Shown: piece by piece, positions 39,902 to 58,940 of the stretch | How positions within the stretch are numbered: the first letter of the stretch is position 1 | How the letters are laid out: each line of letters starts with the position of its first letter | Assembly (NCBI GenBank): GCA_016841675.1 | Contig: JAENYQ010000012.1 | Location: forward strand, 1-58,940 | Direction: 5' to 3' | DNA: 58,940 bases | Source: Desulfotomaculum sp. | GTDB taxonomy: Bacteria; Bacillota; Desulfotomaculia; Desulfotomaculales; Desulfallaceae | The notes under the pieces: generated by a model | The model's input: the letters and a program-made list of their open reading frames with translations, nothing else | Databases searched by the model: none | Told to the model about the DNA's origin: nothing | Made by a program: the position numbers and the translations under genes

Positions 39902-40828
39902 CTAGTTTACCTTGGGTCTGGGGTACAGACCGGATCTTTCTACTATTTCAGGTACTACCTCTTCCCAGGCGATGGCCATGATATGCACGCCGTGTACACC
40001 TTTGATGTTTTCCTTGATGTACTTAATTTGTTCAATACAAATATCGACGCCTTCCTTTTTGGGGTCTTCGGCGTTCTTCAGGCGTTGAACCAATTCTTCC
40101 GGTACAATCATGCCACTGACGTTGTTCTGGATATATTTAGCTGCCCGCCAGCCTTTTAGGGGCGTGACGCCGGCTAGAATGTGGACTCGCTCATCAATAC
40201 CGCGCGCCCGGACCATCTCCATGAAGCGCTCGAAGCGTTCCATATCGAAAATGCACTGGGTCTGAATAAATTCTGCGCCTGCCTCGACCTTCTTTTCTAA
40301 CCGGGCTACCCTGTATTCGAAAGGGTCCGCGAAGGGGTTGGCCACCGCTCCGATGAAGAACCGGGGTTCGTGCTCTTTAATTTCTTCACCCGAGAAAAAC
40401 TTCTTCTCGTCACGCATCCGGCGCAGCAATTGAATTAGCTGCATGGAGTCAACATCGTAAACGTTCTTTGACGTAGGGTGGTTACCAAACTTCTGGTGGT
40501 CACCAGACAGACAAAGGACGTTGCGCATGCCCAAACTGTAAGCGCCCATTAGGTCTGACTGCATGGCGATCCGGTTACGGTCGCGGCAGGTCATTTGGAC
40601 GATGGGTTCAATGCCGGAATCCAGGATGTGTACGCCGGCGGCGATACTGGATAGACGGACAATGGCAGTCTGATTATCGGTAATATTAGTGGCATCCACG
40701 TGCTCTTTCAGCATGTGAGCGTGGTGGCGCATGCCTTCCGACGAAGAGTGCTTGGGCGGGCCTATTTCCGCTGTTACACCAAATTGGCCGTTGTCAAGAA
40801 TTTGTTGTAATTTGCTCTCAGTTTTCAA
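39902..40828 (-). CDS. metF: 5,10-methylenetetrahydrofolate reductase catalytic subunit
   Basis: MetF reduces methylene-THF to methyl-THF, the last step of the methyl branch. The 308-residue product is a TIM-barrel flavoprotein with VTAEIGPPKHSS at the N-terminus, NITDNQTAIVRLSSIAAG, GMRNVLCLSGDHQKFGNHP and EFIQTQCIFDMERF. The start is TTG at 40828, overlapping metV (TTGA). In acetogens such as Moorella, MetF works with MetV, MvhD and HdrABC in one complex, and the same genes are contiguous here. Confidence 0.95.
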   Translation of the reverse strand: MKTESKLQQILDNGQFGVTAEIGPPKHSSSEGMRHHAHMLKEHVDATNITDNQTAIVRLSSIAAGVHILDSGIEPIVQMTCRDRNRIAMQSDLMGAYSLGMRNVLCLSGDHQKFGNHPTSKNVYDVDSMQLIQLLRRMRDEKKFFSGEEIKEHEPRFFIGAVANPFADPFEYRVARLEKKVEAGAEFIQTQCIFDMERFERFMEMVRARGIDERVHILAGVTPLKGWRAAKYIQNNVSGMIVPEELVQRLKNAEDPKKEGVDICIEQIKYIKENIKGVHGVHIMAIAWEEVVPEIVERSGLYPRPKVN

Positions 40829-41496
40829 CCGATCATCACATCCTCCCGGACTGCCCGGCGGGGGCCGCCATCGCGGGACTTGGTCCAGTCTTTGGGCGGC
40901 TGTATTTCCATCAATTTGTCAAGTTTACCAAGGGCGGTCATACGGTCATAGATAAGTTGCCAGGCACAGTCCACGTCCTTGGATATTTCGCATTTGCCAT
41001 ACTGGGAACCGCCGCAGGGGCCGTTCAGAATGCTCTTGGAACAGCGGATAATGGGGCAAATGCCACCGGTGAGATGCAGCACACAGTCGCCGCACAACCC
41101 GCATTTTTCCTCCCAGACACCGTGTTCAGTGGCACCGCCGATAAACTTGGTGTCCAGGGCGGGTACCACCCACTTGTCCTTGAACCGTTCGGCCAGGTAT
41201 TGAACCCCTACGCCGCAGGCCAGGGACACAATGGCGTCAACTTCTTGCACCATGTTATCCAGAGCGACAATATATTCGGGATCGCACTGTCTGGTGGCTG
41301 TAAAGGTGACTGTTTCAATAGGCTTATGCTCCAGTTTGCGCATGATGCGCAAGCTGGAGGCCAATATTTCAGTTTCCTTTTCGCCGCCGGCCAGACATAC
41401 GGTAACACACCCGGCACAGCCCACGAACAGGACCTTGTTGCAGTCACTGATCATGGCAGCGATATCCTTGACAGGCTTTTGTTGGGCGATAATCAT
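40825..41496 (-). CDS. metV: MetV, iron-sulfur partner of methylene-THF reductase
   Basis: A 223-residue MTHFR C-terminal-type protein with many cysteines: FVGCAGCVTVCLAGG near 30, CGLCGDCVLHLTGGICPIIRC near 130, and GPCGGSQYGKCEI. These would bind Fe-S clusters passing electrons to MetF. It is coupled by 4-bp overlaps to mvhD upstream and metF downstream. Confidence 0.92.
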   Translation of the reverse strand: MIIAQQKPVKDIAAMISDCNKVLFVGCAGCVTVCLAGGEKETEILASSLRIMRKLEHKPIETVTFTATRQCDPEYIVALDNMVQEVDAIVSLACGVGVQYLAERFKDKWVVPALDTKFIGGATEHGVWEEKCGLCGDCVLHLTGGICPIIRCSKSILNGPCGGSQYGKCEISKDVDCAWQLIYDRMTALGKLDKLMEIQPPKDWTKSRDGGPRRAVREDVMIG

Positions 41497-41933
41497 GCTA
41501 TCCCACCTTCTTTCCCATCAGGATTAGAAGTTAATGGATTGGGGCCTAGTTTCATAATCCGTTCGGTCATTTCCTTGACTATCTCGGCGAAACGCTGGCC
41601 CTGGGCCGCGGATAGATTGAAAAATTCAACCCGTTCGCCGCCGAAACCTATTTCATCAAGAATTTGTTTAACGTGATTTACGCGTTTCTTGCCCCGGATA
41701 TTACCTTTAAGGAAGTGGCAGTCCCCTTCCATGCATCCGGCCACGAACACTCCGTCTGCTCCGTCTTCAAAAGCGTGCAGGATAACCCGGTGGTCAATGG
41801 TGCCCGAGCAAGGCATTTCAACTATTCTAACGTTAGAGGCATACTGTAATCGCATCGAACCTGCCAGGTCCGCAGCCGAGTATGCTCAGTAGTGGCAGCA
41901 AAAGGCCACTATTTTAGGTTGAAATTCGGCCAC
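41493..41933 (-). CDS. mvhD: MvhD-type iron-sulfur subunit, selenoprotein (Sec16)
   Basis: Reading from GTG at 41933, which follows GGAGGTG and is one base past the hdrA stop, the frame gives VAEFQPKIVAFCCHY, then UGA (41888-41886), then AYSAADLAGSMRLQYASNVR and onward to 41493. Family members have CxxC (FCCNWC) where this has CHYU. The product is 146 residues including Sec. Downstream blocks EMPCSGTIDH and GCMEGDCHFLKGN are normal MvhD. A stem-loop 14 nt after the UGA (41857-41871) could be a bacterial SECIS. MvhD links an electron donor to HdrA. If UGA were a stop, the conserved N-terminus would be lost. Confidence 0.9.
41857..41885 (-). promoter_or_regulatory. Candidate SECIS element in mvhD
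   Basis: GGACCT GGC AGGTTC forms a 6-bp stem with G at the first loop position, starting 14 nt after the in-frame UGA. This is within the spacing seen for bacterial SECIS elements. Confidence 0.6.
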
Positions 41934-41934
41934 T

Positions 41935-44900
41935 CTAACGCACCTCCTTGAATAAGTCATCCATCATGTTCATATACATATCGTCATTGTATCCCTGCAG
42001 GGTAATGGCCTTGTTGGGGCATTCACCGGCACAGGTGCCGCAGCCCTGGCAGAGAACCGACTCAATTTCAGCCGCGTAATTATTCACGCGTGGTGCGCCA
42101 AATGGACACAAGCGGACGCAGGTAAGACATGCCGCGCACTTGTCGGGCTGTACAACCGCGACCACACCGTGTGATTCCAGACGGTCCTTACTGAGGAAGG
42201 TGGCAGCGCGCCCGGCGGCAGCTTTGGCCTGGGCGATGTTCTCTTCCATGTTTTTAGGTCCATGGGCGATGCCGGCCATGAATACACCTTCGGCGGCAGA
42301 GTCAACCGGACGAAGTTTCATGTGTGCTTCCAGGAAGAACCCGTCGGCATTTAAGGGCACCTTGAACAGCCGGTTCAGCTTGACGTTGTCTTCCGGCGCC
42401 ATGATGGCCGCAGCTAAACCGACCACATCAGCCTCAATCACAATGGGCTGCCCCAGTACATGATCTGTAACCGTTACCTTGACCGTGTCGCCGTCCTTTT
42501 CAACCACTGGTTTACTATCGGGGGCGTAACGGACGAAAATGATTCCCTTGGCCCGGGCTTCCTCGTAAAGCTCTTCCAGGAAGCCGTAGGTGCGGATGTC
42601 CCGGTACAGGATAAATATATTGGTATTGGGGTTCTTTTCCTTCATCTTCAGAGCCAGGGTGATGGATTTGGTGCAGCACACCCTGCTGCAGTAAGGCCTT
42701 TCAGGTTCGCGTGAACCAACGCAGTTAATCAATACGATGTTCTTGGCGTCCTTAATCCGCCCTGCGGCGATGGCCTCGTCCAGTTCCAGGTGCGTCATCA
42801 CCCGATCGCTTTCGCCGTACAGGTACTCGTTAGGTTTGTATTCACGGCCGCCGATGGCAATAATCGTTACGCCGTGTTTGATTTCCCGGCCGTCGGCCAG
42901 CTCGGTGTTAAAATTACCCACATAGCCGGTAACGTCCTTGATTTCTACGCCGGTGTATACGCTGATTAACGGGTTAGCGTTTACCTTGGCCGCTAAATCG
43001 GCAACCAGGGCCTGAATATCCTCACCCTTGAAGCCTTTTTGCAATCTCCTGGCCAGTCCACCCAGTTCAGCTGACTTTTCTACCAAATGTACTGCGTAAC
43101 CCTGCTCAGCCAGACTTACGGCATTGGTCATGCCGGTGATACCGCCGCCGATAACCAGGGCGGACTTGGTCACACCGACCGAACCCTGCTTAATCTGCTG
43201 CAACAGTCTAGACTTGGCCGTGGTCATGGTGACCAGGTCTTTGGCTTTGGCGGTGGCCTTATCCGGTTCGTGCATGTGGACCCAGGAGCACTGGTCGCGA
43301 ATATTGGCCATCTCAAACAGGTACCGGTTCAGACCGGCTTCCTTTAGCGTTTCCTGGAATAGCGGCTTGTGCGTCCGGGGACTGCAGGAGGCCACTACCA
43401 CCCGGTTGAGTTGATGTTCGTTAATAATATCCTTCATGGTCGCCTGGCTATCCTGGGAGCAAACATATAGATACTCTCCGGCATAGACCACGCCCGGCAG
43501 CTTTTTGGCCGTTTCTACCACTTCGGGCACTTTAACCACGCCACCGATGTTAATACCGCAGTTACAAATAAATACGCCAATCCTTGGTTCCTCTCCCGCA
43601 ACGTCACGTTCCGGCGGGAATACTATCTCTTTGACCAGGGCTCCACGCACATCACCAAGTAAACTTTCAGCTGCTGATGCCGCAGCGCTGGCCTGCATTA
43701 CTGTTTCCGGAATATCCTTGGGCCCGGAGAAGGTACCGGCTACGTAAACACCTTCGCGAGATGTGTTAACGCCCGTCATCGGGGCCAGCTCGGCAAAACC
43801 GTACCGGTTAAGTTCAACGTCCATAATTTGTCCCAGTTCCTTGGCCTTGGCACCGGCCTGGAAGCCTACCGAGAGAACCACCATATCGAATTCTTCAGTA
43901 GTGATGGAACCGTCCTCGTTGGAGTAACGGATGGTGGGGTTCTTATCCTCACCTGGTGCATCCATCACTTCAAATATCCGGGAGCGGACAAAATTGACGC
44001 CGTGTTCGTTCTTGGCCCGTTCGTAATATTTTTCAAAATCCTTGCCGTAGGAACGCATGTCCATCATGAAGATGGTGGTGTCCAGCGGCTGGGCACTATG
44101 TTCTTTGGCGATAACCGCTTCTTTGATGGCGTACATACAACATACCGACGAGCAGTAATTATGCTCGATGCGCTTGTTGCGGGAACCCACGCACTGGATC
44201 CAGGCGACTTTTTTCGGCTCTTTGCCGTCATAAGGCCTGACCAGGTGACCGCCATACGGTCCGGAAGCGCTCAAGATACGCTCGAACTCAATACTGGTAA
44301 CCACGTTGGGGTTCTTGCGGTAGCCATAGTAGAACAGGTCGGTGGGATCGCATATCTCGGCCCCTGAACTGAGGATGATGGCGCCCACTTCCAGCTCCAG
44401 TTCCTCATCGCGCATGTCGTGGTTGATTGCTTCACGCAGGCAGGTCTTGACGCACTCGCCACACTCGGAGCATACAGCGCAGTTCAGACACCGCTGCGCT
44501 TCTTGGCGAGCGGCTTCTTCACTGATGCCCAGTGCTACTTCGGCAAAGTCGGCGACCCGTTTGGCAGGCTCGACAAAGCTACCTTCAAAACGTGGGGTTT
44601 CCACCTTATTACCCGGTGAATTTTTAGGAAAGTCCACCACTGATTCTTTGGTGGCCCAGTTGAAACAAATGGTTGCTTCCTCACCCCGGCAATACTTATC
44701 TATGGAGGCGGCGGCTTTTTTACCGGTACCGATGGCGTCCACTACGGTGGCCGGACCGGTTACCACATCACCGGCGGCAAATACACCGGGTACGTTGGTA
44801 GCCATTGTTGCTCCGTCCACGACGATGGTATTACGCCTGCTCAGTTCCACAGCTCCGCCCAAACCAGATACGTCAACGGCTTGGCCGATGGCAACAATGA

Positions 44901-46359
44901 TGTTGTCCACGTCAATGGCAAACTCGCTGCCAGCCACAGCAACCGGCCGGCGGCGACCGCTTTCGTCGGGTTCGCCCAGTTCATTTTGAATGCATTCCAG
45001 TTTAGCGATTTTGCCACCGTCACCGTGCATGGCGACAGGACTGGTCATCATTTGGAATACTATATTCTCTTCCTTGGCCTCATGAATTTCTTCTTCGGCG
45101 GCTGTTATTTCAGCCTCGGAACGGCGGTAGACAATAGTCACTTCCTGGGCGCCGCAGCGTAGCGCGGTACGGGCGGCGTCCATGGCGGTATTACCGCCGC
45201 CGATGACGGCTACCCGTTTGCCCAGGGCAATTTTTTCGCCCATGTTGACCCGGCGCAGGAAATCGACACCAGGGATTACACCATCCAAATCTTCGCCCGG
45301 CACATTCAAGGACGTACCCTTGTGCGCGCCAATACCCAGGAACACGGCTTTATAGCCCTGTTTCATCAGGTCGTCGATAGTGAGCTGTGGACCCAGCGGG
45401 GTGTTGGTCTTAATTTCCACGCCCATTCTTGCCAGCAAACCAATTTCCAGCTCTACAATGCTCTTGGGCAGACGATACTCGGGAATGCCCACCCGGAGCA
45501 TGCCGCCTGCTACCGGCAGGGCCTCAAGAACCGTTACCGCGTAACCGTTCTTGGCCAACTGGTAAGCTGCGGAAAGGCCGGCGGGGCCGGAACCAATTAC
45601 AGCTACTTTAATGCCGTTTGACGGAGCAACTTCCGGCAGAGGCAGTTCTTCCAGGTTACGGTAGGCTACTTCTGCGGCTACGCGTTTTAGTTCCCTGATA
45701 CCAACCGGATTGTCCACGCTTTTACGGTGACAGGCGGTTTCGCAGGGGTGGGTGCACACTCGGCCGCAAATTGCCGGCAGCGGGTTGTCCTTGTATATTA
45801 ATTGCCATGATTCAATAAACTTGCCGTCTTTAATAAGTTGCACATAGCCCTGGGCGTTGACGCCGGCGGGACAGGCAGCTTTACAGGGGGATGTACCTGT
45901 TTTTTCAATGGAATAAGCAGCGGGCATAGCCTGGGCGTACATTTTGTAGATGGCTTTCCTTTGGCCCAGATCGGCATCGAACTGGCTGGGTACTTCCACC
46001 GGACAGGCGTCCTTACACTCGCCGCAGCCTGTACACTTTTCCAGATCGATGAACCGTGCTTTTTTACGCAGTTTTACCTTGAAATTGCCCGGCTCGCCTT
46101 GAACGTCAACGATATCTGTAAGCATGTGTTTCTCTACGTTCAGGTGTCTCCCGCATTCTACGAGTTTGGGAGAAAGGATACACATGGAGCAATCATTGGT
46201 GGGGAAAGTCTTATCCAGCCGCGGCATGGTGCCGCCAATGGCCGGTGATTGCTCCACGAGATAAACGTAATAGCCGGACTCTGCAAGGTCAAGTGATGCC
46301 TGAATGCCGGAAATACCAGCACCCACTACCAGCACCGAGCCTACTTTATTTTTGTCCAT
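41935..46359 (-). CDS. hdrA: HdrA-GltD-HdrA fusion flavoprotein
   Basis: A 1474-residue protein. It opens as HdrA ([52 protein letters not shown]). From about 150 to 580 it carries an inserted GltD/NfnB-type module: Fe-S helical region CGRVCTHPCETACHRK, FAD motif VIGSGPAGLSAAYQLAKNGY, NAD(P) motif VAVIGGGNTAMDAARTAL and GVFAAGDVVTGPATVVDAIG. HdrA then resumes (CSECGECVKTCLREAI) and a second HdrA half starts near 1055 (GGGITGMTNAVSLAEQGYAV), ending in two ferredoxin motifs. The insert should let pyridine nucleotide feed the Hdr flavin. ATG at 46359 is taken over a longer frame. MvhD follows one base after its stop. Confidence 0.92.
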   Translation of the reverse strand: MDKNKVGSVLVVGAGISGIQASLDLAESGYYVYLVEQSPAIGGTMPRLDKTFPTNDCSMCILSPKLVECGRHLNVEKHMLTDIVDVQGEPGNFKVKLRKKARFIDLEKCTGCGECKDACPVEVPSQFDADLGQRKAIYKMYAQAMPAAYSIEKTGTSPCKAACPAGVNAQGYVQLIKDGKFIESWQLIYKDNPLPAICGRVCTHPCETACHRKSVDNPVGIRELKRVAAEVAYRNLEELPLPEVAPSNGIKVAVIGSGPAGLSAAYQLAKNGYAVTVLEALPVAGGMLRVGIPEYRLPKSIVELEIGLLARMGVEIKTNTPLGPQLTIDDLMKQGYKAVFLGIGAHKGTSLNVPGEDLDGVIPGVDFLRRVNMGEKIALGKRVAVIGGGNTAMDAARTALRCGAQEVTIVYRRSEAEITAAEEEIHEAKEENIVFQMMTSPVAMHGDGGKIAKLECIQNELGEPDESGRRRPVAVAGSEFAIDVDNIIVAIGQAVDVSGLGGAVELSRRNTIVVDGATMATNVPGVFAAGDVVTGPATVVDAIGTGKKAAASIDKYCRGEEATICFNWATKESVVDFPKNSPGNKVETPRFEGSFVEPAKRVADFAEVALGISEEAARQEAQRCLNCAVCSECGECVKTCLREAINHDMRDEELELEVGAIILSSGAEICDPTDLFYYGYRKNPNVVTSIEFERILSASGPYGGHLVRPYDGKEPKKVAWIQCVGSRNKRIEHNYCSSVCCMYAIKEAVIAKEHSAQPLDTTIFMMDMRSYGKDFEKYYERAKNEHGVNFVRSRIFEVMDAPGEDKNPTIRYSNEDGSITTEEFDMVVLSVGFQAGAKAKELGQIMDVELNRYGFAELAPMTGVNTSREGVYVAGTFSGPKDIPETVMQASAAASAAESLLGDVRGALVKEIVFPPERDVAGEEPRIGVFICNCGINIGGVVKVPEVVETAKKLPGVVYAGEYLYVCSQDSQATMKDIINEHQLNRVVVASCSPRTHKPLFQETLKEAGLNRYLFEMANIRDQCSWVHMHEPDKATAKAKDLVTMTTAKSRLLQQIKQGSVGVTKSALVIGGGITGMTNAVSLAEQGYAVHLVEKSAELGGLARRLQKGFKGEDIQALVADLAAKVNANPLISVYTGVEIKDVTGYVGNFNTELADGREIKHGVTIIAIGGREYKPNEYLYGESDRVMTHLELDEAIAAGRIKDAKNIVLINCVGSREPERPYCSRVCCTKSITLALKMKEKNPNTNIFILYRDIRTYGFLEELYEEARAKGIIFVRYAPDSKPVVEKDGDTVKVTVTDHVLGQPIVIEADVVGLAAAIMAPEDNVKLNRLFKVPLNADGFFLEAHMKLRPVDSAAEGVFMAGIAHGPKNMEENIAQAKAAAGRAATFLSKDRLESHGVVAVVQPDKCAACLTCVRLCPFGAPRVNNYAAEIESVLCQGCGTCAGECPNKAITLQGYNDDMYMNMMDDLFKEVR

Positions 46360-46377
46360 GACATCACATCCGTCCTC
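46360..46377 (-). promoter_or_regulatory. Leader GAGGACGGATGTGATG before hdrA fusion
   Basis: The 16-nt sequence GAGGACGGATGTGATG immediately precedes this start, and is identical upstream of the hdrA at 51165-54191. It contains the ribosome site and an ATG-TGA start-stop pair. Confidence 0.5.
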
Positions 46378-46431
46378 TTGGTTTTGAGTCCATAAAAACA
46401 AAGCAATCTATCTATTGTACAATCTATATTT

Positions 46432-47667
46432 TTACTCTGCCGCTTCTTCTTTCTCGGGCATAATCAACGCTCTTTCCATCAGCGAACACATGTGTAAGTT
46501 CTTGGAACTGGATTTTTCCTCGTACCACTTGTTCAGGTCGGTAAACTGGTCCATGCAGTTGTGGCAGGGCACGATGACAATTTCCGCGCCGGTGGCCACT
46601 ACCTGGTCCACTTTCCGCTTGCCCTTGGCCTTGCGCATATCATTGTATTCGGGCATCGCCATAGCGCCGCCGCCACCACCACAGCAGTAGTTCATTTTGC
46701 CGTTGGGGTTCATGTCCACGAAGTTTTTAATGAAACTGTTAATCAGTTCCCTAGGTGCCTCGTAAACGCCTTCTTTACGGGCGGTGTTGCAGGGGTCGTG
46801 GTAGGTGACTACTTCGGTAATGGCATCGGGATCGAGCTTCAGTTTGCCTTCTTTAACCAGTTCGTTAAGCAGTTCCAGGATGTGTCTAATGGGAAACTGC
46901 TTGCCCTTCCAGAATGTCCGATAGCCCCAACGCATGGAACGGAAGGCGTGACCGCACTCAGTGACGATTAGTTCTTCACATTCCAGGTCCTCAACTTCTT
47001 GCCACAGGGGCATCGAGATGGCCTGAAAGTCATCATTCTGACCGGTGAACAAAGAAATGTTGGTGGCGTCCCAGCGTTTGGTGCTGATGGTGTAATCGAT
47101 ACCGGCGGCGTAGAAAATTTTCAGCGTCGCTTGCAGTTCGTTGGGATAGTACTTGATGTCCCGGGCGTTGAAACCGTAGAAGTACTTGGCCCCCTTCTTG
47201 TTGAGCGGAATCTTGTAATCAGGGTCGCCTAGGTCTTCCTGCAGTTCCTCCTCGATCCACTCCAGGGTTTCCTCATAGTCGGTCTGGTCAACGTTCATCT
47301 GGTTGTTGGACTCAATGTGTTCCCTGGCAATGGTCTGCAGGTAACCCGGAATCTTGTCTTTGTCCCAGGTGCCGCGCAGAGTGCGTACCAGCACCGCCAT
47401 GTTAATATTCATGGGGCACTCGATGGTGCAGCGCTCACACATGGTGCAGTACCAGATATATGGGTCTGCAAAAACTTCTTCTTTCATGCCCAGCAGTACT
47501 TTACGCAGGAACTTGCGGGGATCCTGGTTTTCATGTACGTCTGAGTACGGGCATCCGGCGGTACACATGCCGCAGGCCAGGCAGTTGGTGAAATCAATGT
47601 TTTTCAGCAGGCCGGCTACTTCGTCCCTGAATTGGGGGTTAAGATCGGCAGCTTTAATTACTTCCAT
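46432..47667 (-). CDS. HdrCB fusion, DsrK/HdrD-like
   Basis: A 411-residue protein. The N-terminal ferredoxin region has CLACGMCTAGCPY and CTMCERCTIECP. The C-terminal part has one CCG domain, with CGHAFRSMRWGY, HDPCNTARK, YCCGGGGGAMAMPEYNDMRK and CHNCMDQF. The first CCG half is present as sequence but lacks the cysteine pattern. This layout matches HdrD, DsrK, TmcB and HmcF, which carry a catalytic [4Fe-4S] for disulfide or trisulfide chemistry. It replaces separate hdrB and hdrC in this operon. ATG at 47667 follows GGAGG. It lies between flxA and the HdrA fusion. Confidence 0.88.
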   Translation of the reverse strand: MEVIKAADLNPQFRDEVAGLLKNIDFTNCLACGMCTAGCPYSDVHENQDPRKFLRKVLLGMKEEVFADPYIWYCTMCERCTIECPMNINMAVLVRTLRGTWDKDKIPGYLQTIAREHIESNNQMNVDQTDYEETLEWIEEELQEDLGDPDYKIPLNKKGAKYFYGFNARDIKYYPNELQATLKIFYAAGIDYTISTKRWDATNISLFTGQNDDFQAISMPLWQEVEDLECEELIVTECGHAFRSMRWGYRTFWKGKQFPIRHILELLNELVKEGKLKLDPDAITEVVTYHDPCNTARKEGVYEAPRELINSFIKNFVDMNPNGKMNYCCGGGGGAMAMPEYNDMRKAKGKRKVDQVVATGAEIVIVPCHNCMDQFTDLNKWYEEKSSSKNLHMCSLMERALIMPEKEEAAE

Positions 47668-47873
47668 GATTTAGCCTCCCTCCGAATCTTGGCGTATAAA
47701 CGGAGAATCGTTATAGCAATATTAGGGACTTTCTTATTTATGATACGGGCTGACAGGGTCGTCCGCCCCTACGTTTAGGTGTGTGTCCCCATTCAATCAT
47801 TGGGACAATTCCTCTGCGACATTCCATCGGGGACATTCCTTCGTATTTTGAAGGTGTGTCCCCTTTCCTCTGT
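47668..47873. repeat. Spacer with REP-like hairpins inside the operon
   Basis: Two or three GGGGACA/TGTCCCC motifs occur at 47781-47863. The clearest is GGGGACATTCCTTC...GAAGGTGTGTCCCC (47829-47863). No gene or promoter was recognised. Confidence 0.6.
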
Positions 47874-48713
47874 TTAATATTCGTTGGGTAGTTCGTTAAG
47901 CTGGGCCCTAGTAAAAATGGGGCCATCTTTGCAGACGTACTTACCACCCACGTTGCACCGACCGCACATACCGATACCGCACTTCATCCGGTTTTCCAGC
48001 GACATAATCGTGGTTTCCGGTGTAAACCCAAGCTTTTCAAGCACCGGCATGGTGAACTTAATCATTACCGGCGGGCCGCAGATAATGGCGTGAGCGTTTT
48101 CCGCGCTGGGTGCCACTTCCCCTGTGACGGCGGGGATAAAGCCGACCCTGCCGTTCCAGCCTTCCGCTTCCCTGTCCACGGTGGTGATTAGGTCGATGTC
48201 CGGACTGGCTTCCCAAGCCGCCAGTTCGTCTTTGTAAAGCAGTAGGCCGGGGTTGCGGGCACCGTAAATAACAGTAATTTTACCGAAGTCGCCGCGGCGG
48301 TCGGGATGCATCATGTAAGTGGCCAATGAACGCAGCGTGGTAAAAGCAAAACCGCCGCCGATAATAACCACGTTTTTACCCTTAAACTGGTCCACCGGGT
48401 AGTAATTGCCCAGCGGGCCGCGAACACCCACGATACTTCCTTCTTCCATCATGTGCAGCGCTGTGGATACAGTACCCACCTTGGCCACTGAAAACTTCAG
48501 GAATCCCGGTTCGGTGGGAGACGAGGCGATCCCAAAGGGCGCTTCGCCTTTACCGAAAACACACAACTCGGCAAATTGCCCCGGCATGTAAGGAAAGCTC
48601 TTTTCGTCTTCCTCGCTGAGGAACTGCAGGGTAAAGGTATGGATTAGCTTATCTTCTGTTTCGGTGAAGTTTTTAACCAGCTTCATTGGTAGCGGCAGAT
48701 ATGGATTTTTCAT
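47874..48713 (-). CDS. flxA: FlxA-like FAD/NAD-binding oxidoreductase
   Basis: A ferredoxin-reductase-like protein of 279 residues. Seen: FAD-binding PFGIASSP with MPGQFAELCVFG, the nucleotide motif NVVIIGGGFAFTTLRSLA, the NAD-site ICGPPVMIKFTMPVL and a C-terminal four-cysteine cluster CGIGMCGRCNVGGKYVCKDG. In FlxABCD-HdrABC complexes (described for Desulfovibrio vulgaris) FlxA oxidises NADH. ATG at 48713 overlaps the flxB stop (TGATG). Confidence 0.9.
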   Translation of the reverse strand: MKNPYLPLPMKLVKNFTETEDKLIHTFTLQFLSEEDEKSFPYMPGQFAELCVFGKGEAPFGIASSPTEPGFLKFSVAKVGTVSTALHMMEEGSIVGVRGPLGNYYPVDQFKGKNVVIIGGGFAFTTLRSLATYMMHPDRRGDFGKITVIYGARNPGLLLYKDELAAWEASPDIDLITTVDREAEGWNGRVGFIPAVTGEVAPSAENAHAIICGPPVMIKFTMPVLEKLGFTPETTIMSLENRMKCGIGMCGRCNVGGKYVCKDGPIFTRAQLNELPNEY

Positions 48714-49741
48714 CAACTATCCAACCTCGCTTCCGAACCCCGAATGTTCTCCAGTACCACCCGGATGTCCATATTAACGGGGCAGTTTTTAATGCACCGT
48801 CCGCAGCCGACACAACCTATTTCGTTAAAGTTATCAACGAAATACTTGAACTTGTGCATAATCCGGTTACGGTAGCGCTCTTTATTGCTGGTCCGCGGGT
48901 TGTGCCCGGAACCATGCAGTGTGAATAGCGGGAAAGCACAGGAGTCCCAGTTACGTACCCGGCAACCGGTGCAGTCCACTGCGTCGTCCACGATGTCAAA
49001 ACAGTGGCAGGTGGGGCACAGATAGGTGCAGGCTCCGCAGCCCAGGCATTTTTCATGGATTCTTTCCCATATGGGGTCGTAGAAATTTACATCCAGTTTG
49101 GCTTTCAGACCGTCAGTGTTCACCTGGCAGGTCACCACGGCGGCTTCCTTGGCCGCTGCCGCAGCAGTCTTGTCAGCATCTGAAGCCGCAGTCAAACCGG
49201 CCTGGTCAGCCAGGGCCTTGCCCTTTTCGGTGATCAATTCCACTACGTAAGCGTCACCTGTATCCACCAGCAAAAGGTCCAGCCCGCTGGTATCAAAGGG
49301 TCCGCTGTTGACCGAGGTGCAGAAACAGGTGCTGGCCGGACTGTTGCATCCGATACCCACCATCACTGTATTCTCTCGCCTGGTCAGGTAATAGGGATCC
49401 TGAAATTTATCGTTGTCGAAAACATTATCCAGCAGCTTAAGGCTCCTGGCGTCGCAGGGCCGCACGCCAAACAACACTTTCTTCTTGTCGTCCATGGGTG
49501 CTTCAAGCTTGGTGCCCTCTTCGGTGACACTGTAGCTGAACAGTTTTTCCGACTGCGGGAAGAACAATTCTTTGGCCGGAAGCTTGGTGTTTCCCTCGCC
49601 CACTACTGCATCAGTTCCGGAGGCGACGGGCTTGAAAACCGTAAAATTATCCTTCTTCACAGGCGCTATAACTTCGTATTCGGCAATCATTTTATCCAGG
49701 AGGTTGGGTATATCTTTTTTGCTTACGATCATCAGTTTCAC
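48713..49741 (-). CDS. flxB: FlxB-like iron-sulfur subunit (HydB/AsrA-like)
   Basis: A 342-residue protein with an N-terminal domain carrying FGVRPCDARSLKLLDNVF, typical of HydB/AsrA-type subunits, and two C-terminal clusters, CLGCGACTYLCPTCHCF and CVGCGRCIKNCPVN. Extra cysteines lie in DCTGCRVRNWDSC. It would relay electrons between FlxA and FlxD/HdrA. GTG at 49741 follows AAGGAG. The B label rests on order and domain type; B and C names could be swapped. Confidence 0.82.
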   Translation of the reverse strand: MKLMIVSKKDIPNLLDKMIAEYEVIAPVKKDNFTVFKPVASGTDAVVGEGNTKLPAKELFFPQSEKLFSYSVTEEGTKLEAPMDDKKKVLFGVRPCDARSLKLLDNVFDNDKFQDPYYLTRRENTVMVGIGCNSPASTCFCTSVNSGPFDTSGLDLLLVDTGDAYVVELITEKGKALADQAGLTAASDADKTAAAAAKEAAVVTCQVNTDGLKAKLDVNFYDPIWERIHEKCLGCGACTYLCPTCHCFDIVDDAVDCTGCRVRNWDSCAFPLFTLHGSGHNPRTSNKERYRNRIMHKFKYFVDNFNEIGCVGCGRCIKNCPVNMDIRVVLENIRGSEARLDS

Positions 49742-49742
49742 C

Positions 49743-50699
49743 TCACTCCTTCACCAAGAAAGGTTCTGGGTCGTCAGCTGCAAATGTTGCCATGGCTGCC
49801 TTATCGTCCATGCTGACACCAGCTTCGGCGTTGAACAGTACCTTGACATCTTTGACTAGCTTACGGGTTAGCAGGCGCAGGTTGATGCCCATGGGGCAGG
49901 CCCTCTCGCAAGCGCCGCAATCGGCACAGCGACCGGCGCTGTGAAATACCCTAACTGCCTGAAATAGAATATTATCTTGGACGTTCGCCGCACTCTTGCC
50001 AATCCACTCCGGCTGGGAGCAATCCACAAAACACTCCGTGCAATAACACATGGGGCAGGCATTGCGGCAGGCATAACATCTGATGCATTTGCTGAATTCT
50101 TCGGTCATAAAAGCCCGGCGTTCCGCGGTAGTTTTGGCTTCGAATGCCTTAATCTCGGCAAAATCTTCTTCTGCCTTTTCCGGCATTAGGGTACCGATTA
50201 GTTCATCGTAAACCACAGGGTTACCGTACCGGCAGTCGATACAGGAGTTATGCAGCAAGTCCGCCAGTTTGGCGGTTTCAGCGAAACCATTGCCCTTTAG
50301 CACGATAGTGTCGCCCTGATCGACTACTTCCAGGACTTCTTTGCCGCCTAGCAGTTTACCGACTTTTTTACGGTCGACCATGCCGTCACAGGGTACGCCG
50401 ATGATATAAAGGTTGTCACGGTCAATCTGGTTTTCCTTGGTTAGGGCCACGATTGAACGGACGTCACAGCCCTTGGCTACAACAGCTACTTTACCTTCCC
50501 GCTTGCGCAGGAAATTGGCCAGGTTATTTTCACAGCCCCTGTTCCAGGTTAGTTGGTTAGCTTCTTCGGGTGTACGGGCGAAAAACGGTGTGCCGCGCAG
50601 CGGCAGGCTGCCTTCGGCGAAACCAACCACCAGGTCAACTTTCTTGTCTTCCAGTAGTTTCTTCGCGGCCTCTTTTACTTGAGCTGCTATTGCTTGCAT
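49743..50699 (-). CDS. flxC: FlxC-like iron-sulfur subunit
   Basis: A 318-residue protein. The N-terminal half resembles the FrhB/FdhB beta-subunit fold (VAVVAKGCDVRSIVALTKEN, IIGVPCDGMVD). The C-terminal half has Fe-S motifs CIRCYACRNACPMCYCTECF and CADCGACERACPMGINLRLL. ATG at 50699 overlaps the flxD stop. It is an electron-transfer subunit of the Flx-Hdr complex by context. Confidence 0.82.
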   Translation of the reverse strand: MQAIAAQVKEAAKKLLEDKKVDLVVGFAEGSLPLRGTPFFARTPEEANQLTWNRGCENNLANFLRKREGKVAVVAKGCDVRSIVALTKENQIDRDNLYIIGVPCDGMVDRKKVGKLLGGKEVLEVVDQGDTIVLKGNGFAETAKLADLLHNSCIDCRYGNPVVYDELIGTLMPEKAEEDFAEIKAFEAKTTAERRAFMTEEFSKCIRCYACRNACPMCYCTECFVDCSQPEWIGKSAANVQDNILFQAVRVFHSAGRCADCGACERACPMGINLRLLTRKLVKDVKVLFNAEAGVSMDDKAAMATFAADDPEPFLVKE

Positions 50700-51142
50700 C
50701 CGCAACACCCCGATTCACTTTCAATTAGGCCTTGATCAGCTATTCCATTATTGGGCCCAAGTTCCTTAACTTTGTCCGTTACGTCCTTGACCAACTCGGC
50801 GAATCGGCCGCCCTCGGCTGCCGATACCCAGGAGAAGTTTACCCGGCCTTCGTCCACGCCGACGTATTCCAAAAGGTCTTTAAGCAGGGCGAATTTCCTA
50901 CGGGCCACCAGGTTGCCACTAACATAGTGGCAGTCGCCGGGGTGTCACCCGGAGGTCAGCACGCCGTCAGCTCCGTGACGCAACGCGCTGATTATGAACA
51001 GCGGGTTAATCCTACCGGTACAAGGTATGCGCACCACCCGGATGTTGGGCGGGTACTGGATACGTCCGATACCGGCCAAGTCGGCGCCGGCATAACTGCA
51101 CCAGTTGCACAAGAATGCTACAATTTTGGGATCGCGTTCCAT
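50687..51142 (-). CDS. flxD: FlxD/MvhD iron-sulfur subunit, selenoprotein (Sec66)
   Basis: Reading from ATG at 51142 behind [27 protein letters not shown]..., then GADGVLTSG, then UGA (50947-50945), then [20 protein letters not shown] and on to TAG at 50687. The product is 151 residues including Sec66. Homologues have SGCHPGDCHY here, and the other MvhD in this window has AGCMEGDCHF, so UGA replaces a conserved cysteine. A perfect stem-loop 12 nt after the UGA (50914-50932) is a good SECIS candidate. The C-terminus ends CCGCKQ. It would connect the FlxABC module to HdrA. Confidence 0.92.
50914..50944 (-). promoter_or_regulatory. Candidate SECIS element in flxD
   Basis: TGCCACTA TGT TAGTGGCA, a perfect 8-bp stem with G in the loop, begins 12 nt after the in-frame UGA. 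Confidence 0.65.
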
Positions 51143-51164
51143 ATCTGGTGTTTCCCTCCCCCAT

Positions 51165-54100
51165 CTACAGCGCTTTAATCATGGCTATAAGCTGCTGGTT
51201 CGTGCAACCCTTGACATTGATTGCTCCACAGCGGCAGGTTGACGCGCAGGCACCGCAGCCCTTGCATAAAGCCTCGTTAACCACGGCAACTTTTTTAATC
51301 GCATCCACTTGAACGGCCTTGGCCGGGCAAACAGCTTCGCAATCGCCGCAGCCGGCGCACTTTCTCTCATTGACAAAAGCGCTCTTGCCTTCCACGGAAA
51401 TTGATTGCTTGGCCAGAACCGTACAGGCGCGACCCACTGCGGCTTTAGCCTGGGAGATGTTCTCTTCCAGGTTCTTGGGCCCGTGGGCCAGTCCGCACAT
51501 AAACACGCCGTCGGTGCCAAAGTCCACTGGGCGCAGTTTCATATGTGCCTCCAGGAAGAACCCTTCCTGGTTAAGAGGTACCTTGTAGAACTGGCTGAGT
51601 TTACTGTTAGTATCCTTGTCCGGCACGATAGCGGCAGCCAGACCCACTATATCCGCGTTGATCTCAATCGGTATGCCCAGCACATGGTCGGTTACGGTCA
51701 CTTTCACGCTGTCAGCACCGGCTTCGACAACAGGTTTGTTGTCTGCGCTGTAGCGAACGAAGATAACGCCCTTGTTGCGGGCTTCCCGGTACATTTCTTC
51801 GAAGAAACCGTAGGTTCTAATATCCCGGTACAACACAAATACATTGGCATTGGGGTTGAGTTCTTTAACTTTAAGAGCCTGTTTAACGGATTTGGTGCAG
51901 CAAATTCTACTGCAATAAGGCCGCTCGGCGTCCCTGGAGCCTACACACTGAACGAAAACAACGTTCTTGGCACCGGTTACTTTGCTGTCTTTGTTGGCCA
52001 GCAGGCTTTCCAGTTCCAGCAGGGTCATAACGTTTTTGTTTTGGCCGTATAGGTACTCGGTAGGCTTATATTCCCGGGCACCGGTGGCGATTATAGTTAC
52101 ACCATGTGGTATAACGTCGCCGCTGGACAGGGTAGTCTCAAAGTTACCCACGAAACCGTGCACGTCAGTAATTTCGACGCCGGTACTCACTTTGATGTTA
52201 GCATCGGCGTTAACCTCGGCCACCAGGTCACTGATGTAACTAGGCAGGTCTTCGCCTCTCATGCCGAAACGCAACTGGTTGGCAATGCCGCCCAGCTCGG
52301 CGGACTTTTCCACCAGGTAGACTTTATAACCCTGTTTGGACAGACCCAAAGATGCAGTTATCCCGGCTACACCGCCGCCGATAACCAGAGCGTCATGGTT
52401 CATGTCCAGGGTCACACCGTCAATAGGTTCCAGTAGGGCAGACTTGTAGATAGCCATTTTGACCAGGTCTTTGGCCTTGGCAGTTGCCTTTTCAGGTTCC
52501 TGCATGTGTACCCAGGAGCACTGATCGCGAATATTGGTCATTTCAAACAGGTTGGCGTTCAAGCCAGCTTCCTTCAGCGTTTCCTGGAACATTGGCTCGT
52601 GGGTCCGCGGACTGCAAGATGCAACTACGACTCTGTTTAAGCCGTATTGATCGATGGCCTCCTTGATTTGGGCGGAAGTGTCTTGGGAGCAGGCATACAG
52701 TTTTTCATCAGCAAATGCAACTCCCGGCAGCGTCTTGGCATAGGCCACTACTTCAGGCACGTTGACCACGCCGCCAATGTTGATACCGCAGTGACAAATG
52801 AACACGCCGGTACGAATAACCTCGCCGGCCACGTCTTTTTCAGCCGGGTATTCCTTGGCCTTGGTCATGGTGCCGCGCACATCCGCCAGGACGGCTGCCG
52901 AATCGGATGCTGCCGCGCTGGCCTGCATCACAGTTTCAGGAATATCCCGCGGACCGCTAAATGCGCCGGCCACAAAAATACCTGGTTTGCTGGTACCCAC
53001 ACCGGTAAGGCTGGGTGATTCACAGAAATTAAACTTATTTAATTCCAGACCTAATTTATCGGCCAGTTGCACCATTCCAGAAGGCGGTTCCAGACCTAAG
53101 GAGAGAACCACCAGGTCGAAGTCTTCGGTGACAATGGTGCCGTCCTCGTTGGAGTAACGGATCTGGCAATTGCCGGTATCATCAAAGGTGTCGGTCACTT
53201 CAAACACGCGGGAGCGAATGAACCGCACCCCGTTTTCCAGGCGGGCTCGGTCATAATATTTTTCAAAATCCTTACCGTAAGTGCGCATGTCCATGAAGAA
53301 AATAGCCGTATCCAAGGGGTACTTAGTATGCTCTTTGGCGATAACAGCTTCCTTGATGGCATACATGCAACAGACTGAGGAGCAGTAGCCGTGTTCATTG
53401 CGGCAGTTCCTGGAACCAACGCACTGAAGCCAAGCGATTTTTTTCGGTTCTTGGCCGTCGGCCGGTCTTTGCAGATGACCGCCGAAGGGGCCTGAAGCAC
53501 TAAGGAGACGTTCAAATTCCATGCTGGTGATAACATTGGGCAACTTACCGTAACCGTAATACCAGAGCTGGCTGACGTCATACTTTTCAAAGCCGGGGCA
53601 AAGGATGACCGAACCAACTTGTAATTCCAAGGTTTCGTCCTGCATTAAGTGATCAATGGCGTTTGCCTGGCATACTTCCAAACATTTGCCGCAGGCCTTG
53701 GGTTTTTTAATTTTCAAGCACCGAGTGGTATCAATGGCGTAGGCGTTAGGGTAAGCCTGGGCGTACAGTTTGTAAATGGCTTTACGCTTATTAAGCCCCT
53801 GGTTAAAGTCATCATCCACTTTAACGGGGCATTCTTCTGCACAAGAGCCGCAACCTGTACATTTATCAGGATCAACCATACGCGCCTTTTTATTGATAGT
53901 TACTTTGAAATTGCCAGGTTCACCCTGAATGTCAGCCACTTCAGAATTGGTAATGGTCTCGACATTCAAGTGCCTCCCGCACTCAACCAGTTTGGGAGAC
54001 AGGATGCACATGGAACAGTCATTGGTGGGGAAAGTTTTGTCCAGCATGGGCATGGTGCCGCCAATGGCGGGGCTTTTTTCAACCAGGTATACATAGTATC

Positions 54101-54191
54101 CTGATTCTGCCAGATCAAGCGAAGCCTGAATACCGGCGATACCTGCGCCAACCACCAGAACGGCTCCAACCTTATCAGGTTTGGTACTCAT
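51165..54191 (-). CDS. hdrA: HdrA-like flavin/iron-sulfur subunit, duplicated form
   Basis: A 1008-residue HdrA. Half 1 has [20 protein letters not shown], the [20 protein letters not shown] cluster region, [12 protein letters not shown] and CGKCLEVCQ. Half 2 begins [20 protein letters not shown] near 590 and ends with [16 protein letters not shown] and [16 protein letters not shown]. It is the first gene of the long operon, with flxD 22 bp after its stop, as expected for the HdrA of a Flx-Hdr complex. The ATG at 54191 is 17 bases from the GGAGG; no better in-frame start is visible. Confidence 0.93.
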
Positions 54192-54400
54192 CTAAGCATC
54201 ACATCCGTCCTCCTAGTTTCAGCGTGCAAAAATATGCCTTCTTCCGCCAGGCCGGGTGCGTGTGACGGGCCGTTTACCGCCCAACCGGCCATAAAAAAAC
54301 TGGTTTCACTTTGCAATTAATTAGTTCGCTTCAGCGGCTGTTTTTGGTGCAAAATCTTAGTTTTATGCACTATTACAGGGTTTATACCCATCTTGAACAC
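54192..54400 (-). promoter_or_regulatory. Long 5' leader of the hdr-flx-met operon
   Basis: About 200 nt separate the predicted transcription start from the first codon. It contains GTGCATAAAA/TTTTGCAC and GC-rich stems and ends in GAGGACGGATGTGATG. I could not match it to a known riboswitch class. Confidence 0.45.
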
Positions 54401-54429
54401 AGTATAATCCCTAACCAACCTACTGTCAA
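54401..54429 (-). promoter_or_regulatory. Sigma-A promoter of the hdr-flx-met operon
   Basis: TTGACA (54429-54424), 17 bases, TATACT (54406-54401) on the minus strand. Confidence 0.85.
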
Positions 54430-54464
54430 ATAGCTGGAATAAAATAAAAAGAACCGCCCTTAGA

Positions 54465-54504
54465 GGTTATGAAAAGGAGGTTTGGGGGCCGCCTTTTCAT
54501 AACC
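54465..54504 (-). terminator. Hairpin downstream of acsE
   Basis: GGTTATGAAAAGG and its exact complement form a 13-bp stem, with TTCTTTTTATTTT further on in the minus direction. It separates the acs genes from the hdr-flx-met promoter. Confidence 0.65.
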
Positions 54505-54534
54505 AATACGGCATGTATTAGTCTTCCCGTTAAT

Positions 54535-55329
54535 TTACCTGGAACGGTAAGTTTTTAGGAACGAATCGCAATAGATGTCTTGGTTCATCAGGATTTTGGC
54601 TGCTGCCACTGCATCAAGCAGATCATCATCATCAACATCGGCAATAGCTGAATCCAGCCCGTTGGCTATGGACATAATCAGGAATGTCCGGTTAATCAGC
54701 TTCCTGTTGGTGCAGCCCTGGGATGAGTTGCTCAGACCCATGGTTGTACGAGGCGGCGGGTCGGCCAATGTCTTGATTTGACGCAGGGTTTCCAACACTT
54801 CGACACCGTGTTCCTGGGCCACGTTGGCCGGCAGCATCAGCGGGTCGATATACAGGTCTTCCATGGGCACGCCGTGCATATCGCAGTTAACCACGATTTC
54901 CATGGCCAGGGCCACCCGATCGGCAGCGCTCTTGGGCACGCCCTTTTCGTTCATGGCCAGACCGATAATGGCGGCGTTGTATTTGGCAGCCATGGGAATA
55001 TAGATGTCCATTTTCCACTGGTCGGCAGTGGTGGAGTTAATCATCGCTTTGCCCTTGTGTACTTTTAAACCGGCTTCGATGGCTGCCGGGTTGGTGGAGT
55101 CAACGCAGCAAGGCAGCTGCGCGGCTTCCTGGGCAATTTTGACCAGCCATTCCATAACAGCGGGTTGATCTTCGGCTTCAACAGTGGGGCCGGTGTTGAT
55201 ATCAAGGAATCCGGCGCACATTTCATACTGGCGTTTAGCCCAATATTGGATAGGTTCCGGGTTTTTGTTCAAAATGCCCTCGCGGATATCTTTAAACATT
55301 CCATTAATCCGTTCGCCGATTAGAATCAT
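54535..55329 (-). CDS. acsE: 5-methyltetrahydrofolate:corrinoid/iron-sulfur protein methyltransferase
   Basis: AcsE (MeTr) transfers the methyl of methyl-THF to the cobalt of the corrinoid iron-sulfur protein. The 264-residue TIM barrel (pterin-binding family) starts MILIGERINGMFKDIREGIL and has FLDINTGP near 57, CCVDSTNPAAIEAGL, MINSTTADQWKMD and TTMGLSNSSQGC. The length matches the family. ATG at 55329 follows AAAGGAGG. It is the last acs gene. Confidence 0.96.
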   Translation of the reverse strand: MILIGERINGMFKDIREGILNKNPEPIQYWAKRQYEMCAGFLDINTGPTVEAEDQPAVMEWLVKIAQEAAQLPCCVDSTNPAAIEAGLKVHKGKAMINSTTADQWKMDIYIPMAAKYNAAIIGLAMNEKGVPKSAADRVALAMEIVVNCDMHGVPMEDLYIDPLMLPANVAQEHGVEVLETLRQIKTLADPPPRTTMGLSNSSQGCTNRKLINRTFLIMSIANGLDSAIADVDDDDLLDAVAAAKILMNQDIYCDSFLKTYRSR

Positions 55330-55377
55330 GCTTTTAGCCTCCTTTACTTACAATAAATAGTATTTTTAAGTAATATT

Positions 55378-56328
55378 TTAATAGGCGTTGCTTTCCATTA
55401 CCTTGGCAAAATGAGTATTCACGTGTTTAATGGTCTCTGGGTGACGCAGGATAAAGATCGAACCACCGGCTAGAGCGAAGGAAGTGGTGGTGACAACTTC
55501 CCACAGGATGGCCCGTTTGTCCAGAGCGCCCCACTCGGGAGTCTCTTCATCCGGGCTCTTGGCTTCCTTGGCTTTCCAGGCTTCCTGGCCTACAAAGCAG
55601 ATAACCGGCATAGCCAGCATTTTGTCGCCCATCAGGGCGCCCATGCGGGCCCGCTCCATGATGGAGTAGGCGTATTCAATGCCGTAACCCAGCGCGCCAA
55701 CCAGCGGGTCAATAGCGATGCGGTTGGTGGGCAGATTCATTTCGGTCATTAGGATGTTCAGCTGCTTGGCCAGGTTAATGTCCAGCGGGCTGGACGCTAT
55801 CACGCTGTGGCCGTTAACCATGGCAGCGGCGGTGATTGTTTTATAGTTTTTCTCGGTGGCACAGCCAATCAGGCATTGCTTCCCGTTTAAAGCTTCCCCA
55901 ACTTTTTCCATGACCGCGGCGTCTTTTTCGTCAATACCACAGCCGATTAGCACTAGAGGTACATCGACAGCGTCAGCCACTGCTTTAGCAGTAGCGGCAC
56001 ATTCTTCGGGAGAGGCATCTTTAAAGTCGGGATGAGCGCTCATAAAACGTATGGCAATCAGGTCAGCACCATATTCTACGTTTTTCTTGGCCCAAGCTAC
56101 GGGATCAGCCAGTACGCCATCAAAGGGTTTTTTCAGAATGTCGGGCCACTCGGTGGGTTCCATATCCCATACTTCTAAAGCCAAAACCGGACGGTTGGGA
56201 ATTTCACCCTCAAAGTGCAGGAAAGGCAGCGAGGTTTCCCCGCCTACTTTGATAGCCTTGGCCCCTGTGCCCAGTTCCATTTCTCCGACTTTGCTGGTCC
56301 ATTTTTCTTTTGCTATCGTAACAGCCAT
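55378..56328 (-). CDS. acsD: Corrinoid/iron-sulfur protein, small subunit
   Basis: AcsD forms the heterodimeric corrinoid iron-sulfur protein with AcsC. The 316-residue TIM barrel carries GGETSLPFLHFEGEIPNRPV near the N-terminus, ALEVWDMEPTEWP, FMSAHPDFKDAS, CGIDEKDAAVMEKV and RIAIDPLVGALGYGIEY. ATG at 56328 follows GAAAGGAG; a longer frame to 56436 runs into a repeat. The spacer to cooC carries two REP-like hairpins. Confidence 0.96.
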   Translation of the reverse strand: MAVTIAKEKWTSKVGEMELGTGAKAIKVGGETSLPFLHFEGEIPNRPVLALEVWDMEPTEWPDILKKPFDGVLADPVAWAKKNVEYGADLIAIRFMSAHPDFKDASPEECAATAKAVADAVDVPLVLIGCGIDEKDAAVMEKVGEALNGKQCLIGCATEKNYKTITAAAMVNGHSVIASSPLDINLAKQLNILMTEMNLPTNRIAIDPLVGALGYGIEYAYSIMERARMGALMGDKMLAMPVICFVGQEAWKAKEAKSPDEETPEWGALDKRAILWEVVTTTSFALAGGSIFILRHPETIKHVNTHFAKVMESNAY

Positions 56329-56368
56329 TGTTTCGCTCCTTTCTACATTAGAAAGCTTGGTATAAGTT

Positions 56369-56478
56369 GGGACATTCCTCGACCTGTAAGTTTGACCCAA
56401 AAGCTGAGGTGTGTCCCTTTTCATAAGTTGGGACATTCCTCGACCCGTAAGCTCGACCCATAATCAGAGGTGTGTCCC
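56369..56478. repeat. Tandem pair of REP-like hairpins
   Basis: Two similar units, 56369-56417 and 56430-56478, each run GGGACATTCCTCGACC...GAGGTGTGTCCC, preceded by ataagttg. They lie within the acs operon between cooC and acsD. Confidence 0.7.
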
Positions 56479-56485
56479 TTTTCCG

Positions 56486-57244: not shown

Positions 57245-57344
57245 AAGATTGGTCCTCCTTTGGCTTGGTTATAACAACTGTTATAATTAATCTAAAGGTT
57301 TGCGGGCCACACTCGCTTAAGTTTAATTTAAAACTACTTCTGGC

Positions 57345-58667: not shown

Positions 58668-58886
58668 TACTCCAAACTCCTTTCGCTGAAACCTTGTATA
58701 AGTTAGGGACATTCCCCTTACCTTTATATAGAACTTACATAGAACACCGGGGGGGGGCAGAACCCTTTGGTTGGGGACACACCTCCATCGTTCACGGAGG
58801 TGTGTCCCCATTATTTTTGTCTTTAGTTCCTTAGGATTCCGCCTTTAGTGTTCCTAAAACTCGCAAATAAATTACTTACCTAATAA
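58668..58886. other. acsB-acsC spacer with hairpin
   Basis: A perfect hairpin GGGGACACACCTCC/GGAGGTGTGTCCCC at 58773-58809 belongs to the REP-like family, and a run of nine G lies near 58749. No gene is seen. Confidence 0.6.
58773..58809. repeat. REP-like perfect hairpin
   Basis: A 14-bp perfect stem with a 9-base loop. It is the most regular member of the GGGGACA family in this window. Confidence 0.75.
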
Positions 58887-58940
58887 TTACATCAGTGGAT
58901 CCATGGTCAGCGCCGGGTGTCCTTTCTCTTCGAGGAAGGA
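58887..58940 (-). CDS. acsB: Acetyl-CoA synthase, C-terminal end (partial)
   Basis: The last 17 codons of a gene that continues past the window: SFLEEKGHPALTMDPLM, then TAA at 58887. The ending HPALxMxPxM is typical of the catalytic subunit of CODH/acetyl-CoA synthase, and acsC follows in the usual order. The short length limits certainty. Confidence 0.8.
   Translation of the reverse strand, partial: SFLEEKGHPALTMDPLM

Follow-up and report, generated by a model that had tools for sequence, protein, structure and literature searches.

The flxD gene, part of a carbon-fixation gene cluster of an anaerobe on the reverse strand of a 58,940-nucleotide stretch of Desulfotomaculum sp. DNA (contig JAENYQ010000012.1; hereafter, the window), almost certainly encodes a selenoprotein, in which codon 66, a UGA at a conserved cysteine position, would on all of the sequence evidence be read as selenocysteine (Sec66). 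The whole explanation that we favor, namely that the gene encodes the relay subunit FlxD and that UGA66 is translated as Sec through a hairpin downstream, is very probably correct. Family membership, the conservation of the UGA, selection on the hairpin, and the genes of the Sec machinery are parts of this explanation established at the level of sequence, and the role of FlxD in electron transfer would follow from its homology to MvhD and from the gene order.

The flxD gene and its genomic context

The flxD frame (51142-50687) contains one in-frame UGA, which is read through, and is terminated by TAG. Its translation matched PF02662 (FlpD) with 177 bits, compared to the curated cut-off of 22.3, over profile positions 1-123 of 123. 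The conserved cysteine columns are named C1 to C5 here and correspond to C12, C15, C41, C66, and C71 in FlxD numbering; over these columns flxD has the pattern CCCUC, and its N-terminal CxxC reads CNWC, such that the CxxU motif is absent and the Sec is at C4. FlxD aligned over nearly its full length with the PDB MvhD chains 5odc_D, 7bkb_F, 9sw2_D, and 8rvu_F (E values of 2.6e-48 to 9.8e-45), and whereas these MvhD chains of solved Hdr complexes have Cys printed at the aligned C4 position, flxD has Sec. A [2Fe-2S] cluster in FlxD is predicted from this homology. The FlxD tail (50687-50720) reads GCCGCKQ, and similar Cys-rich tails were seen in the other six Flx-type rows printed.

Table 1. Location of flxD, its recoding elements, and the surrounding genes in the window.
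Feature	Coordinates	Strand	Details
flxD, FlpD/MvhD-type [2Fe-2S] subunit	50687..51142	-	151 residues with Sec66; PF02662, PDB MvhD chains
UGA = Sec66 at conserved cysteine C4	50945..50947	-	codon 66 of the 151-residue frame
bSECIS hairpin, 8-bp stem, loop UGU	50914..50932	-	begins 12 nt after the UGA
likely ribosome-binding site, purine-rich GGGGGAGGG	51154..51162	-	ahead of ATG 51142; by eye
hdrA, 1008 aa, directly upstream of flxD	51165..54191	-	NF040770 969.8 bits, below the model cut-off of 1100
flxC-like Fe-S protein	49743..50699	-	start ATG 50699 or GTG 50708, within the last flxD codons
flxB-like, AsrA/sulfhydrogenase beta type, Fer4_22	48713..49741	-	profile matches
flxA-like FAD/NAD-binding reductase, AsrB type	47874..48716	-	profile matches
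fused HdrC-HdrB type protein, Fer4 + CCG domains	46432..47667	-	domains
long HdrA/HdrL-like protein, 1488 aa	41935..46401	-	inserted pyridine-nucleotide reductase domain
mvhD paralogue, GTG start assumed	41493..41933	-	Sec codon 41888-41886 at C2
metV	40825..41496	-	position before metF; no NCBIfam match
metF, methylenetetrahydrofolate reductase type	39902..40828	-	NF006396 244 bits, below the cut-off of 453

As listed in Table 1, flxD adjoins hdrA and flxC-, flxB-, and flxA-like genes, a neighborhood that we take to be Flx from the gene order; the names of the fused HdrC-HdrB type protein (from its domains) and of metV (from its position before metF) are likewise putative. The FAD/NAD-binding FlxA-like ORF suggests an NADH-dependent bifurcating complex FlxABCD-HdrABC, with FlxABC as the putative electron donor by homology. 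The 1488-aa HdrA-like protein resembles HdrL described in Desulfobacterium autotrophicum. Two hairpins, at 54446-54513 and 58766-58820, matched the Rfam families Chlorobi-1 and Trp_leader below their cut-offs and are possibly terminators.

A preceding sequence-only reading of this DNA had placed the UGA where an MvhD paralogue of the same operon has Cys, and this was confirmed: the PF02662 match spans codon 66, and its context, LTSG-U-HPGDCHY, aligns with AGCMEGDCHF in the paralogue. The paralogue has a UGA of its own in place of the second cysteine of its N-terminal CxxC (C2), which is residue 16 if GTG 41933 is the start and corresponds to Cys15 of flxD. The two paralogues of the operon therefore do carry Sec at different conserved cysteines, as had been claimed, but the claim of two such genes holds for the operon and not as the scope of the genome, in which there are six FlpD matches, four of them with one in-frame TGA each. 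The two further genes with TGA (G000:C40:8125-8496 and 20585-20956) have it at C2. One of this pair has a C-terminal ferredoxin-like extension, and behind the other lies a NuoE-like frame (both named by eye). The FlpD domains without TGA are at G000:C125:16549-16926 and C135:6926-7294; one is part of a 746-aa frame and has Asp at C2, and one is without three of the five cysteines.

The genome also has a tRNA-Sec (66.5 bits; anticodon TCA by ARAGORN), a SelB gene (389 bits, cut-off 242) directly behind a SelA-like ORF that is named only from its position and a reading of its sequence, and a SelD gene (399 bits). The presence of these genes excludes an objection anticipated in the sequence-only reading, that the UGA might lie in a genome without Sec machinery. 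The SelD gene (G000:C134:74587-75504) has one in-frame TGA, and SelD is probably itself a selenoprotein. In annotation, C4-Sec forms of FlpD will end at residue 65 if the UGA is taken as a stop.

The hairpin downstream of the UGA codon

The perfect 8-bp stem-loop that had been noticed 12 nt after the UGA was recovered as a hairpin with the stem TGCCACTA/TAGTGGCA and the loop TGT in DNA, with a folding energy of -17.8 kcal/mol (z -2.44; 3 of 200 shuffles were as low). The SECIS core was evaluated as the pairs i + j = 48 for i = 15 to 21, numbered from the U of the UGA, leaving out 5 matches that lacked the spacing (one degenerate, L006; two partial, L151 and L166; two fragments, L168 and L176). 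All 7 core pairs were found in 76 of 76 C4-Sec rows of the own genome and relatives, and in 82 of 89 C4-only rows overall compared to 1 of 26 all-Cys rows and 0 of 12 C2-only rows, counts that are not independent draws because the rows are related. The 7-pair stem was broken in 7 of the 13 C4-only rows taken from double-Sec loci, and those lineages would accordingly have a different or weaker hairpin.

The ninth residue after the Sec is Ser in 75 of 89 C4-only rows, with the codon AGT in all 75 (and in 75 of the 76 C4-Sec rows of the own genome and relatives); the background use of AGT is 12% (5325 serine codons from coding matches at these loci) or 13% (493 serines elsewhere in these genes). 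In all-Cys forms this position is occupied by K, S, E, D, or T, and 1 of their 6 serines is encoded by AGT. At pair 20-28, C-G was found in 73 and T-A in 13 of the 89 C4-only rows, which is a change on both sides; 12 of the 13 T-A rows, mostly with Asp codons, came from loci of the double-Sec scan and 1 from a relative. Synonymous-codon shuffles, for which the C4-only and all-Cys groups were used and the double-Sec groups were not, gave a mean z of -1.44 for C4-Sec (n = 88) versus +0.08 for all-Cys (n = 26). For flxD alone the result was moderately unusual (p 0.07), and p 0.05 was reached by only 31 of the 88 C4-Sec rows.

A search of the genome with Rfam SECIS_1 gave no match, and likewise none was obtained in 14 controls; a permissive Rfam scan of 39500-58940 gave no match at the flxD UGA. 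Judged by the comparisons above, the hairpin downstream of UGA66 behaves as a bacterial SECIS that is conserved beyond protein coding and is under selection.

Selenocysteine at C2 and C4 in the FlpD family

PF02662 was searched in 60 genomes, the own genome included, and the rows of relatives were taken from the best-scoring matches listed. Among these, 115 distinct FlpD of the own genome and relatives comprised 75 with C4-Sec, 12 with C2-Sec, 26 with all Cys, and 2 degenerate sequences, frequencies that are biased because every listed TGA row was taken, along with only five rows without TGA and 30 automatic loci, such that TGA was favored. None of these 115 FlpD, among the matches listed, had Sec at a column other than C2 or C4. 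The exact string LTSGUHPGDCHY was present in 36 distinct FlpD sequences, among the matches listed, which include flxD and those of the three congeners that were fetched (L077, L105, and L118). In two members (L005 and L218), the C2 position is Asp or Ser, so the family does not strictly require a cysteine at C2.

In a phylum-wide draw, the DNA motif for C4-Sec was found in 65 of 299 genomes (49 of 215 genera), compared to 1 of 299 in the backward control, and the C2-Sec (CxxU) motif in 7 of 299 genomes (5 of 215 genera), with a control of 0; the motif patterns are strict and unequally so, and these frequencies are lower bounds. The double-Sec motif was found in 0 of 398 in the phylum-wide draw. 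A scan of genome_contigs for paired UGA codons at the two sites, at a distance of 153 nt, returned 62 loci, and 62 of 62 were FlpD with Sec at both C2 and C4. By record title they were mostly from Desulfobacterota, the rest including Aminicenantes, Acidobacteria, and two archaeal records. In several Desulfobacterota loci (L134, L136, L138, L164, and others), double-Sec and C4-Sec FlpD were seen on the same fetched stretch.

One of the archaeal records belongs to the Jordarchaeia, which are Asgard archaea. In its phylum, TGA was present in 12 of the 30 loci fetched, among the matches listed, and these 12 had Sec at both sites (8), at C2 (3), or at C4 (1), that is, only at C2 or C4. The phylum of the second archaeal record, represented by five genomes, contained three double forms, one being the record itself, and one C2-only form. 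By these alignments, the pair of sites is common to bacteria and archaea, although their SECIS systems differ, the archaeal SECIS being located in the 3' UTR according to the available passages of PMC9499178. The family alignment proposed in the sequence-only reading thus placed Sec only at C2 and C4 in the FlpD rows read, from bacteria and archaea, with many proteins using both.

The exchange between Sec and Cys in FlpD appears to have happened repeatedly, a conclusion supported by parsimony, which required at least 8 changes at C2 and at least 16 at C4 on a tree in which gains are not distinguishable from losses. The tree was built without the C2 and C4 columns (131 columns, 216 rows) and is poorly resolved, with many open forks; 3 rows were left out of the set, and the labels of the degenerate L005 and L006 were unused, yet both were kept in the tree as not-Sec. 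In the family to which the window belongs, Met-type copies with Cys occur alongside others with Sec, and one relative (G009:C1:1641908-1654865) has all-Cys, C2-Sec, and C4-Sec FlpD within about 13 kb. The earlier proposal of independent Cys-to-Sec replacement therefore stood as regards repeated exchange, but the difference in site is not peculiar to this operon; a differing cluster chemistry, the alternative offered there, stands as a hypothesis. The C4-Sec of flxD is, on these alignments and motif counts, no local oddity.

Mechanism, partner genes, and known systems

In the favored explanation, FlxD would act as a [2Fe-2S] relay that passes electrons from the FlxABC-like (NADH-oxidizing) module to the 1008-residue HdrA, UGA66 would be decoded as selenocysteine by SelB and tRNA-Sec via the hairpin, and the Sec at C4 would be a ligand of the [2Fe-2S] cluster or a thiol beside it, tuning its potential or exchange rate. 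The MvhD/ElpC cluster is described in PMC12350162, where, in the passages available, it is called unknown how electrons leave the MvhD-type [2Fe-2S] cluster and reach the bifurcating flavin, which lies 25 Å away in one Elp-Hdr state. Natural exchange of Sec and Cys at two fixed, partner-sorted sites points to thiols that matter, and the natural FlpD variants of bacteria and archaea provide a matched set for testing this electron crossing.

The TGA that is present in the assembled sequence would also be accounted for if it were a true stop or an error of sequencing or if flxD were a pseudogene, and an error at 50945-50947 had been raised as an objection at the outset. However, the identical TGA occurs in the three congeners and across the order, the C4-Sec motif recurs through the phylum far above its backward control, and the stem is under selection. 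Reading of UGA as Trp or Cys under an alternative code would also leave the flxD frame open, but the neighboring flxC frame terminates in TGA (49745-49743), tRNA-Sec and SelB are present, and UGA is confined to two cysteine columns in the FlpD rows read. We regard each of these readings as having a negligible chance of being correct, and they were rejected. It is improbable, though compatible with the favored explanation, that UGA66 is in addition a selenium-sensitive switch, with translation stopping at 66 without selenium and less flxC and later genes being expressed. The flxC gene begins within flxD, 13 nt (ATG) or 22 nt (GTG) ahead of its end, the scored downstream start overlaps the flxD end in 34 of the 59 C4-Sec rows examined for this (the choice of start being uncertain, and one overlap being an implausible 217 nt), and all-Cys FlpD exist in relatives, in one case beside C2-Sec and C4-Sec copies, as described above; the overlap is nevertheless absent in 25 of 59 C4-Sec and 22 of 23 double-Sec rows and present in 3 of 5 all-Cys rows. 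The suggestion in the sequence-only reading that selenium could tune the whole operon is a conjecture, for which the sole hint is the flxC start inside the flxD end.

The partner of each of 216 distinct FlpD was taken as the next gene downstream. Beside flxC/B-like genes, there were 65 C4-only, 39 double, 6 all-Cys, and 0 C2-only FlpD, such that C4-Sec was present in 104 of 104 Sec forms; beside metV, there were 10 C2-only, 2 double, 1 C4-only, and 5 all-Cys FlpD, with C2-Sec in 12 of 13 Sec forms. The sole C4-only Met-type case, L221, is from an Aminicenantes genome, and the remaining FlpD adjoin hdrA, something else, or a contig end. A Fisher test of C2-only versus C4-only by partner gave 1e-11, which describes a pattern and not a probability, because descent is shared and the doubles, having been fetched for being double, were chosen as such. 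As a pattern in these sequences, the Sec site tracks the partner gene: C4 in Flx-type FlpD, usually C2 in the Met type, and both sites in some lineages.

It may be that the electron donor decides which of two thiols close to the cluster has to be a selenol, with Flx-driven FlpD needing C4-Sec, MetVF-coupled FlpD needing C2-Sec, and double forms serving both kinds of exchange, but we consider this rather unlikely; if it were true, the position of Sec, as read from sequence, would show the direction in which, or the partner from which, electrons enter HdrA bifurcation. That the choice of site is functionless, C2 and C4 being equivalent near the cluster and each lineage keeping the site that was hit first, is a serious possibility that falls somewhat short of probable. 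All combinations are in use, Met-type FlpD occurring with Sec at C2 only, at both sites, at C4 only (L221), or not at all, and the Sec state is strongly clustered on the tree, so the association with the partner may be one of shared descent. Against a functionless choice, no Sec form adjoining flxC/B has C2-Sec only (39 of the 104 having been chosen as double), and at least 3 changes on starred branches are required to explain the C2-only state, which must have been entered or left on more than one occasion.

FlpD selenoproteins themselves were already known, and flxD belongs to the same family (PF02662): FrhD/MvhD/VhuD selenoproteins were reported in 2006 with exchange of Sec and Cys in both directions, and 19 bacterial FrhD selenoproteins, two in Desulfotomaculum reducens, were counted (PMC1794560). 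They were also reported in Desulfobacterium (PMC2702500), and a 2016 count gave 131 FrhD selenoproteins in 53 organisms (PMC5029168). What is new here is the two-site map, the link to the partner, and the SECIS evidence; the literature passages searched contained no statement of C4-only forms, of a division between C2 and C4, or of any rule linking site and partner. A 2026 listing gives CxxU as the FrhD motif, with two Sec, in the passages available (PMC13188914); flxD differs in keeping Cys in its CxxC and in having C4 as its only Sec site. Archaeal FrhD with multiple or up to two Sec are also on record in such passages (PMC13188914, PMC9499178); the archaeal loci read here, from the phyla of the two archaeal records, use the same C2 and C4. 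The HdrABC-MvhD-MetVF complex of Moorella thermoacetica, known to us by description (passages of PMC5736913, PMC6085437, and PMC10608574), has the same gene set as the other half of the operon, whose MvhD has C2-Sec; unlike that complex, flxD stands with FlxABC-like genes.
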